The notes below the pieces were generated by a model. It saw nothing but the letters and a program-made list of their open reading frames with translations, was not told the origin of the DNA and searched no databases. The position numbers and the translations under genes are program-made. Positions 6,133 through 64,000 of a DNA stretch of 64,000 bases are shown here, piece after piece. The stretch's first letter is position 1. Every line of letters starts with the position of its first letter. The stretch lies in contig NC_087166.1 in assembly GCF_035594125.1 (NCBI RefSeq), positions 16,950,766-17,014,765 on the forward strand, in the 5' to 3' direction. Origin of the DNA: Scylla paramamosain. Taxonomy: Eukaryota; Arthropoda; Malacostraca; Decapoda; Portunidae.

Positions 6133-7457
6133 TGCTCTTCTTGCGTTTTATCATTCTGGTGGCTAAGAAATTCGATAACTCTCATAATATATATTTCGTG
6201 TAATACCTTTTTCTTTTTTTTTTCCGGATATCGACTACTTTCTAAACATTTTGACATTTTCCTTTGTAGCAAGCTCAAAAACACTCAAAATACACGTTTT
6301 TGGTACAGTTATAATGTTTCTCCATAAAGATTTTTTTGGATGCGTTTTAGCGTTTTCCTACGTAAGTTGCCCAAAAACACTGAAAAGAGACGTTTTTGTT
6401 AATATTATTTTGTTTACGAATATAGGGTGCTTTCCATGCTTTATATCAAAACATTCAAAACACTTATTTTTTTGGCAATGATATTTTTTTTTTTGTAAAG
6501 GATGTTTTCCAATTTTTTTTCTGGTAATGTCGTTTCGTTTCCCCATTTAGATGATTTGGATGCATTTTTGGCGGTTTGGTACATAGTAATGTGAAAGTCA
6601 CGCAAAATACGAAGTTTTTTGGTATTGTTCTTTTTCTCGATATATTCATGCGTTTTAACATTTTTGGTACCTTAGAAGGACAAAAAAATCTCATAATACA
6701 CGTTTCTTATAATGTTTTTCTTTTTTTGTTTTGACATTTTTTACTACGTAACAAAATAAAAATCCAACAAAATAACAGTGTATGGTGAAATAATACTGTT
6801 TTTCCATGAAGGGTTTTTTTAGTGTTTTGGTACTTAAGTAACTCAAAAACACTGAAGAAAGGTTTTTGTTGATATTATTATCTATTTATTTATTTTTTAC
6901 AAATATTGGTTGCTTTCCATTCTTTTTATCATATTGGTGCCTGCACGCTCACAAACACTAAAAAGATACGTTTCTGGAAATCTCATTTCCTTTCCCCCTA
7001 TGAGGTGATTTGCATTTATTTTCGAGTTTTGTTACCTAACAATGGGAAATACACTCCAAATGTAGGTTTTTTTGTAATGTTATGTTTTCTAAATAGAGTA
7101 GTATTAACGTTTTTTACCGTTTTTGTAAGTGCGAAGCTCAGAAAAAACTCATAATATGCGTTTTTCGTAATGTTATTTTGTTTCCCCATACATATTATTT
7201 TACGAGTATTTTAAGGTTTTACTACGTAACAAGCTCAATAACGCTCAAAATCCTTTTTTTTTTGGGGGGGGGGGCAATGTTATTCTATTTCTCCAGAAAT
7301 TGTGTTTTGTATCTGATAAGCTCAAAAACACTCTCTCTCTCTTAACGTCCTTTCGTTTCCCAATATAGTGTATTTTGCATTTTTTTTTCTCATTTTTGTA
7401 CGTAACAAGCTTAAAAACAATCAAAATACTTATTTTTTTCCATAAAAGGTGTTTTGA

Positions 7458-7564
7458 ATATATATATATATATATATATATATATATATATATATATATA
7501 TATATATATATATATATATATATATATATATATATATATATATATATATATATATATATATATA
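7458..7564. repeat. (TA)n microsatellite, 107 bp, at an R-to-F switch
   Basis: Pure TA run where the array changes direction. Upstream reads R (CCATAAAAGGTGTTTTG); downstream reads F (CATACCAATAAGATAAAACGC). The mirror tract in the right arm (62982-63420) is 439 bp, so the same locus differs about fourfold in length between arms. Confidence 0.97.
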
Positions 7565-8599
7565 AATATATATTATATCTCCATATATGAAAATACAAAA
7601 AATAACAATACGAAAAAAAGTGTTTTTAAGTGTTTTTGATCTTCTTACATACCAATAAGATAAAACGCATGTAAAACCTTTTTTTTGGAAAAAAAACAAT
7701 AACTACCAAAAAATAAGTTCTTTGTTTCTTAGCCTTAATCCTTGGAAAGTATACTATTTGGTGAAACGAAAGGACATGACAAGGAACGAGTATTATTAAT
7801 GTTTTTGAGCTTCTTTGTACCAAAATGCGAAAACGCATAAATAGCACTCTTTGGCGAAACCGGAAAAACACCCAAAACCTGTATTTTTTCACACAATGTT
7901 AGGTACCAAAACGATAAAATACATTCAAAGCACCCTATCTAGGGAAACGAATCGAGATTTCCAGAAACGTGTCTGTTGAGTGTTAATGAGCGTGCTAGAC
8001 ACTGAAACGATAAAAAAAAAAAAAAAAAAAACATAGAAAGCACCCTATATGAGAAAAGAAAACAATATTACCAAAAACGTCTCTTTCAGTGTTTTGAGTT
8101 ACTTGCGTATCATAAACGCTAAACCCCTGCATGCAAAACACACTTTATGGAGAAACGGAAAAGCATTAATAAAAACAAGTATTTTGAGTGTTTTTGTGCT
8201 TGTTGCGTTGTAAACGCCAAAATGCATGGAAAGTATACTATATGGGGAAAAGAAAAGATATTACAAGTGTATTATGAGTGTTTTTGAGCTACATAATCAT
8301 CAAAACACCAAAACGGATGAATAGATATCTAAATGGAGAAAGGATATTACCAAAAACGTGTATTTTTTTTTTTTACATTGTTATGTACAAAAACACACAC
8401 AAAAAAAATCATGCAAAATCAAATTATATGAGGAAAAGAAACGAGAACTCCAGAAACATATCTTTTGAATGTTTATGGGCGTGCTAGCACCAAAAAGCTA
8501 AAAAAAAAAAAAAAAACACATATAATACACTTTATATGTGACGTGTCTTTTGAGTGTTTTGAATTTCTTACGTACCAAAACGCTAAAACGGATACAATT

Positions 8600-62981: not shown

Positions 62982-63420
62982 ATATATATATATATATATA
63001 TATATATATATATATATATATATATATATATATATATATATATATATATATATATATATATATATATATATATATATATATATATATATATATATATATA
63101 TATATATATATATATATATATATATATATATATATATATATATATATATATATATATATATATATATATATATATATATATATATATATATATATATATA
63201 TATATATATATATATATATATATATATATATATATATATATATATATATATATATATATATATATATATATATATATATATATATATATATATATATATA
63301 TATATATATATATATATATATATATATACATATATATATATATATATATATATATATATATATATATATATATATATATATATATATATATATATATATA
63401 TATATATATATATATATATA
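62982..63420. repeat. (TA)n microsatellite, 439 bp, at an R-to-F switch
   Basis: Longest TA run in the window, interrupted by a single C at 63329. Array reads R before (CATATATGGAGATATAA) and F after (TTCAAAACACCTTTTATGG). It is the mirror of the 107-bp tract at 7458-7564. Long Ile-Tyr frames through it are artefacts. Confidence 0.97.
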
Positions 63421-64000
63421 TTCAAAACACCTTTTATGGAAAAAAATAAGTATTTTGATTGTTTTTGAGCTTGTTACGTACAAAAATGAGAAAAAAAATG
63501 CAAAATACACTATATTGGGAAACGAAAGGACGTTAAGAGAAAGAGTGTTTTTGAGCTTATCAGATACAAAACACAATTTCTGGAGAAATAGAATAACATT
63601 GCCCCCCCCCAAAAAAAAAGGATTTTGAGCGTTATTGAGCTTGTTACGTAGTAAAACCTTAAAATACTCGTAAAATAATATGTATGGGGAAACAAAATAA
63701 CATTACGAAAAACGCATATTATGAGTTTTTCTGAGCTTCGCACTTACAAAAACGGTAAAAAACGTTAATAATACTCTATTTAGAAAACATAACATTACAA
63801 AAAAATCTACATTTGGAGTGTATTTCCCATTGTTAGGTAACAAAACTCGAAAATAAATGCAAATCACCTCATAGGGGGAAAGGAAACGAGATTTCCAGAA
63901 ACGTATCTTTTTAGTGTTTGTGAGCGTGCAGGCACCAATATGATAAAAAGAATGGAAAGCAACCAATATTTGTAAAAAAAAAAAAAAATAAATAAATAAT
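63421..64000 (+). repeat. Satellite array, F orientation, right edge
   Basis: Mirror of about 6873-7457, as in CCTTAAAATACTCGTAAAA against TTTTACGAGTATTTTAAGG at 7199. A C-run at about 63602-63610 corresponds to the G11 run at 7264-7274. It ends in an A-run and AAATAAAT at the window edge. No gene is seen. Confidence 0.88.

Follow-up and report, generated by a model that had tools for sequence, protein, structure and literature searches.

The 64,000-bp stretch of Scylla paramamosain DNA analyzed here (the window, C16:16950766-17014765) lies within a giant palindrome of satellite DNA, and an older palindrome is nested inside its left arm. The giant palindrome was confirmed as real within the assembly (1.21 Gb in 234 contigs), and the 258 kb examined around the window (C16:16856001-17114000) revealed that it is longer than the window shows. 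A sequence-only reading had described arms of at least 28 kb; these arms are real, but 28 kb is merely where the window ends and the actual arms measure ~65 kb, which makes that observation right and understated. The explanation that we favor, with a probability of roughly two in three, is that two nested inverted segmental duplications took place inside a ~95-bp satellite, each reversal occurring by fold-back, and that the copies then diverged.

Arms and segments of the nested palindromes

Unique 20-mers of the window traced a single mirror relation along one anti-diagonal, from 6893<->63979 through 34718<->35947. We compared the window arms (6873-34718 and 35947-64000) by globally aligning 6871-34718 with the reverse complement of 35947-64000, and 26,812 of the 27,169 aligned bases were identical (98.69%), far above the satellite background. 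This alignment contained 357 mismatches (197 transitions and 160 transversions) and 114 gaps, 76 of which were single-letter runs of at most 30 bp. These results bear out the claim that the landmarks between 6.9 and 34.7 kb recur inverted between 35.9 and 64.0 kb. On the contig, the younger palindrome extends over C16:16920434-16985484 and 16986712-17060006; its arms are identical at 53,422 of 54,118 bases (98.71%), and at 5,775 of 5,861 (98.53%) past the insertion in the right arm. Homology then ends abruptly, since the flanks (16904100-16920600 and 17059800-17068200) share only 5,325 of 7,998 bases (66.6%), the level of the satellite background.

The older palindrome is a spaced one. Its 26-kb arms, A1 (C16:16911504-16937.7k) and A2 (C16:16955.3k-16981450), are inverted relative to each other and identical at 24,170 of 24,764 aligned bases (97.6%), and they are separated by a non-palindromic spacer of ~17.6 kb, segment B. 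The overall layout on C16 is A1-B-A2'-C-A3-B'-A4'. The segments, arms and junctions that fall in the window are as follows (window coordinates, with the strand where one applies):

1-4548: segment B (its right end), ~17.6 kb in total, which separates the arms of the older palindrome
4549-30685, reverse strand: segment A2, right arm of the older palindrome, an inverted copy of A1, which lies outside the window
30686-39918: segment C, the inner 4 kb of each arm plus the central spacer
39919-64000, forward strand: segment A3, the mirror of A2, running on to ~C16:17016.9k
1-34718, forward strand: left arm of the younger palindrome, starting at C16:16920434, ~30 kb left of the window; 6873-34718 is mirrored inside the window and the remainder to its right
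34719-35946, forward strand: central spacer, unduplicated, ~1,228 bp, satellite in phase with the left arm
35947-64000, reverse strand: right arm of the younger palindrome, ending at C16:17060006, ~45 kb right of the window
30685/30686: orientation switch at the outer breakpoint of the older palindrome, with its mirror at 39918/39919; C16 alone has it intact among the listed matches
35946/35947: inner junction of the younger palindrome; C16 alone has it intact among the listed matches

Most of the length of the central spacer has ~80% copies on C10, C22 and C35. Immediately to the right of the large palindrome there is a separate small one (C16:17060374-17067024, arms of ~2.4 kb at 97.8%), and a run of 2,500 N at C16:16886266, 34 kb to the left, may be an assembly gap. 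An apparent further extension of the palindrome at C16:16899.4-16902.7k / 17069.3-17072.5k was rejected, the match being a dispersed 3.3-kb element. Copies of this element, 92-95% alike, lie at or near array edges (C16:16874.0-16877.3k, 16899.5-16902.7k and 17069.3-17072.5k; C10:16510.3-16513.7k), and three of them contain a match to the window's LINE fragment.

Order of the duplications and inserted elements

We compared the four copies of segment A over a ~17-kb stretch, leaving out the retrotransposon in A4 (14,065 gap-free columns). Pair identities were 98.40% for A1-A4 and 98.45% for A2-A3, and 97.12-97.45% for the remaining four pairs. At 174 sites the copies split two against two: 162 of these group A2 with A3 and A1 with A4, 9 group A1 with A2 and A3 with A4, and only 3 group A1 with A3 and A2 with A4. 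The 162 sites indicate that the older palindrome formed first and was then duplicated whole in reverse. Changes specific to one A copy numbered 114, 87, 111 and 93, which is clock-like (chi-square p=0.16). As read from these alignments, the history is one of two successive inverted duplications with little subsequent arm-to-arm exchange. Branch-length arithmetic, assuming a clock, would make the first duplication roughly 1.8 times as old as the second.

The elements carried by the window arms are these:

5843-6040, forward strand: SINE-like insert between (AT)n arrays, left arm only
7458-7578: (AT)n array at an orientation switch, with its mirror array at 62977-63421
17882-18282, forward strand: crab-like LINE 3' fragment, at the mirror place in the other window arm as well, with partial copies in A1 and A4
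22953-23039: (AT)n array at an orientation switch, with its mirror array at 47282-47378
47282-47378: (AT)n array at an orientation switch, mirror of 22953-23039
52040-52439, reverse strand: mirror copy of the LINE fragment, 98.0% identical to 17882-18282
62977-63421: (AT)n array at an orientation switch, the longer mirror of 7458-7578

The LINE fragment stands at matching places in both window arms and partly in A1 and A4, and it therefore predates both duplications. What had been taken for two LINE insertions is thus one ancestral insertion, duplicated. At E<=0.001 the fragment (17882-18282) has 141 protein relatives; among the best 120, most give no organism and all those that do are from Portunus trituberculatus. 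A Pfam scan of the LINE and SINE pieces found no domain above the cut-off. The insert at 5843-6040, which we take to be SINE-like, yielded no tRNA gene with ARAGORN, and a piece of it had no match in an IMG/VR scan. It is present once within the 258 kb of C16, which indicates that its insertion postdates the duplications. Hence the LINE fragment, the orientation switches and several (AT)n arrays are mirrored as the sequence-only reading had it, but this insert is not. The right arm in turn carries a 9-kb element (C16:17044880-17053912) for which the left arm has an empty site. The element's 1,340-bp terminal repeats are identical except at 2 bases; it ends in TG...CA and is flanked by a 4-base repeat (judged by eye), like an LTR retrotransposon. 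Its insertion is probably younger than the palindrome; the alternative, a precise loss from one arm, is less likely.

The satellite part of the 258 kb holds 41 (AT)n arrays of at least 30 bp, whose lengths differ strongly between arms (e.g., 121 versus 445 bp). Long pure arrays are found in the window at 371-489, 5681-5842, 44822-44948 and 62977-63421, among others. A role of these arrays as seeds of the orientation switches is not established. Of 21 switches on C16, 9 coincide with (AT)n, against a null mean of 1.2 (P=0.002); these copies are non-independent, however, and after de-duplication the count is 2 of 12 (P=0.125).

Junctions, host satellite and duplications on other contigs

We searched the genome with 1.2-1.3 kb across 30685/30686 and across 35946/35947, scoring the best 40 of 19,838 and 18,282 candidates, respectively. 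Among the matches listed, the first junction is spanned at no place other than the two in the C16 arms (100% and 98%), each of which also matches itself in reverse orientation at 65%. Its right side is matched by C10, C22, C3, C4, C13 and C40, and its left side by C17, C37, C11 and the outer end of A1, again among the matches listed. The second junction is crossed by itself alone, with C10, C22, C35 and C13 matching one or the other side among the matches listed. On this sequence evidence, the two tested junctions look like derived events of C16 rather than shared inversion sites. Where the two homologies meet at 35946 there is no clear overlap of the kind that fold-back leaves at a spacer junction, an inverted microhomology of 2-8 bp. 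At 30685 they overlap by up to ~7 bp around GCATGC, a place that is the outer end of the older copy and not its spacer. The empty-site test for the second switch was negative, the right flank ranking 135th to 533rd of 968 satellite pieces. On seven other copies that we compared (C10, C22, C35), the spacer unit usually continues into a sequence different from that of the outer right flank.

A profile of the ~95-bp monomer covers 86% of the window, and the open reading frames of at least 150 aa in the window are (AT)n runs only. Mean likeness between monomers at lags 1 to 25 is 63-70%. Profile clustering with 5 classes made the monomer order readable as a five-monomer higher-order pattern, A-D-E-B-C, of ~475 bp; average-linkage clustering failed to do so. 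Away from the palindrome, the best match over 8 monomers in the window was 0.897 inverted and 0.894 direct, with medians of 0.644; the likeness of the arms thus far exceeds that of other satellite blocks in the window. We saw no decayed older palindromes at the other orientation switches in the left half of the window, where the best inverted 8-monomer match was 0.752.

Among the matches listed, the satellite occurs on at least 31 of the 234 contigs, in one stretch per contig (stretches judged by eye), the widest being ~6.9 Mb on C1. The array is a putative centromeric satellite. Genome-wide counts of a 27-base satellite tag are 3,244 in forward and 2,969 in reverse orientation, against no match for the control; the 258 kb of C16 contain the tag just twice, so array families differ among contigs.

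Inverted blocks are also present on other contigs. Two C10 blocks, one near 16.353-16.379 Mb and the other near 16.800-16.821 Mb, are inverted copies at 98.2-99.4% (three pairs of pieces compared). On C1, a pair found by eye from two tag pairs with equal coordinate sums was confirmed by sequence (99.8% over 8,777 bp, with ~73 kb between the blocks). The midpoint of this pair consists of 4 kb of one-way satellite and is not palindromic, which makes the pair a spaced inverted duplication like A1-B-A2. Taken together, the 100 listed C1 tags form 11 mirror pairs (null 95% of 10, null maximum 12). All 53 listed tags from C1:18.89-20.80 Mb have the same orientation, whereas those at 18.17-18.80 Mb are mixed; perhaps only parts of an array switch orientation. 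C10 holds a direct block duplication as well (98.0%). Between 16.35 and 17.02 Mb of C10, two spacer-unit families ~82% alike occur as inverted pairs (I+ then II-), which are themselves repeated in direct and inverted order. The inverted copies on C10 and C1, besides C16, point to long inverted copying as a way in which this satellite may grow.

Origin and significance of the palindromes

Fold-back or template-switch duplication is the best mechanism that we can propose, because a long reversed copy with a short unduplicated turn marks fold-back duplication, and both palindromes have a single-copy spacer (~1,228 bp in the younger, ~17.6 kb in the older). Under this account, the 26-kb block A would have been copied in reverse, giving A-B-A', and later ~65 kb including this older palindrome would have been reverse-copied across a 1.2-kb turn, giving A-B-A'-C-A-B'-A'. 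In the second event, a broken or stalled array end may have annealed within its own strand, or switched template to the opposite strand, 1.2 kb behind. Long backward copying of ~65 kb would have followed until a second switch or end joining, leaving the unduplicated turn as the spacer. The copies would afterwards have diverged through ordinary mutation, microsatellite change and new insertions. Several points count against this account: the right flank departs from the way in which the spacer unit usually continues, there is no clear microhomology at 35946, and divergence is not uniform. The direct block duplication on C10 counts against inversion as the sole mode.

The main risk to this reading is a misassembly, a head-to-head join of two haplotypes of the same locus with ordinary heterozygosity as the source of the 1.3% difference. 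It would account for several observations: divergence of ~1.3%, a one-arm insertion and differing (AT)n lengths are all expected of two haplotypes, and the 2,500-N run lies 34 kb to the left. Allelic homology should continue outward, however, but the likeness ends sharply at 16920434/17060006 and is 66.6% beyond. An older palindrome with its own breakpoints is nested inside, and arms that differ at about 1 per 75 bases should be resolvable by accurate long reads. Inverted duplications recur on C10 and C1, though these come from the same assembly. The sharp ends, the nested ages and the recurrence on other contigs make such an artefact unlikely. Another possibility is that A-B-A'-C was duplicated in direct tandem and that B was then inverted by recombination between inverted A copies. 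Recombination between the inverted A copies around B is indeed feasible, and A copies 79 kb apart match directly as well. This scenario predicts A1=A3 and A2=A4, but only 3 of the 174 sites fit; it also leaves the mirrored segment C unexplained, and we regard it as extremely improbable.

Arm-to-arm gene conversion could instead have kept an old palindrome alike, as in mammalian Y palindromes, and the long near-identical arms and short spacer are what it would produce. Divergence along the arms is uneven, as conversion might leave it and at odds with a perfect clock: mismatches are overdispersed in the window arms (variance/mean 1.76, null 95% 1.31), divergence steps from 1.56% to 0.88% at window position ~15.3 kb (a log-likelihood gain of 11.9, where 500 null runs reached at most 10.2), and the A copies contain a few clusters of copy-specific sites. 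From the centre outward, the segments of the younger palindrome diverge by 1.17% (C), 1.34% (A2 versus A3), 1.00% (B) and 1.80% (A1 versus A4), which is no steady rise with distance from the centre and speaks against conversion. Rare exchange between copies that are not partners may explain the excess in the A segments, which exist in four copies. Against conversion, too, no tract between merged mismatches in the window arms exceeds 540 bp, where chance gives a median of 559 for the longest. Homogenized mirror arms would have A1 and A2 sharing derived changes, yet these neighbors share 9 such sites compared with 162 on the duplication tree. Nor have the arms stayed free of arm-specific insertions, the retrotransposon and the SINE-like insert each being in one arm only. 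Pervasive conversion as the main cause is thus not supported by these comparisons and appears very improbable, although rare patches of arm-to-arm exchange may have occurred. The sequence-only reading had offered recent formation or conversion; recent formation is supported, whereas conversion conflicts with 162 of 174 sites, clock-like changes (p=0.16) and a retrotransposon in one arm. Selection for dyad symmetry, by which mirror arms help centromere chromatin as proposed for Tribolium, is also improbable, if a little less so. It would fit a satellite lying in one stretch on each of at least 31 contigs (among the matches listed), and Tribolium species with unrelated satellites all carry macro-dyads (PMC13081366). 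On the other side, our tested junctions are specific to C16 among the listed matches, compared with thousands of conserved inversion sites in Tribolium, and all 53 listed tags between 18.89 and 20.80 Mb of C1 have one orientation.

Fold-back duplication followed by divergence remains our preferred reading, and its product resembles several known structures. Large palindromes of mammalian sex chromosomes and of the D. melanogaster Y pericentromere (the latter reportedly described by Mendez-Lago in 2011) bear genes, and the mammalian ones have arms kept alike by conversion. The crab palindrome shares with both the long near-identical inverted arms and the short spacer, but it differs in that its window has open reading frames of at least 150 aa only in (AT)n and pervasive conversion was not seen. 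The closest counterparts in satellite DNA are the macro-dyad symmetries of Tribolium madens, T. freemani and T. castaneum, the longest being 75 kb in T. madens (PMC13081366). The remark that palindromes are not a usual feature of satellite arrays was mostly fair, except that these beetles have them. The crab array is similar in reversing orientation, in having mirror structures of tens of kb and perhaps in lying in the centromere region; opposite-orientation subarrays of tandem monomers form a mirror of kb to tens of kb, as in these macro-dyads. In the Tribolium arrays, inversion sites are conserved in thousands of copies and monomers are homogeneous (PMC13081366). We found no inversion site conserved genome-wide for the two junctions (best 40 candidates each), and in the crab, with its old and diverged monomers, every position pairs with one mirror partner and palindromes of two ages are nested.

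Human fold-back inverted duplications have spacers of 766-70,466 bp (median 3,428) at 21 sequenced junctions (PMC3907307). They likewise place a long inverted copy beside the original across a short unduplicated spacer, and 1.2 kb is within the human range (PMC3907307). The human cases are new and mostly terminal patient rearrangements in gene-bearing DNA (PMC3907307), whereas the crab copy is internal, lies in satellite and is old enough to differ by 1.3%. We found no case of a decapod satellite palindrome by title or abstract opening in the open-licence literature, and the main text of a Decapoda repeat survey (PMC10454600) has no word beginning with "palindrom". The authors of the Tribolium work state that macro-dyad symmetries were so far documented exclusively in Tribolium (PMC13081366); our results extend satellite macro-dyads from these beetles to a decapod.

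The crab array also lends itself to reconstruction. Its old, diverged monomers give each position a single mirror partner, and this reveals in which order and at what relative ages its inverted duplications arose, whereas satellite arrays are usually too uniform for their history to be read. We tentatively suggest, at somewhat below even odds, that these arrays grow and rearrange largely by repeated long fold-back copying, with reversed blocks of ~10-65 kb nested over time, in addition to the unequal exchange and local homogenization that are assumed for satellites. If so, the arrays would constitute a readable and datable record of successive inverted duplications, at one probably centromeric site per chromosome. 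Such symmetry could arise as a by-product when DNA breaks and is copied, or it could be a feature of the centromere, and these two views can now be tested.
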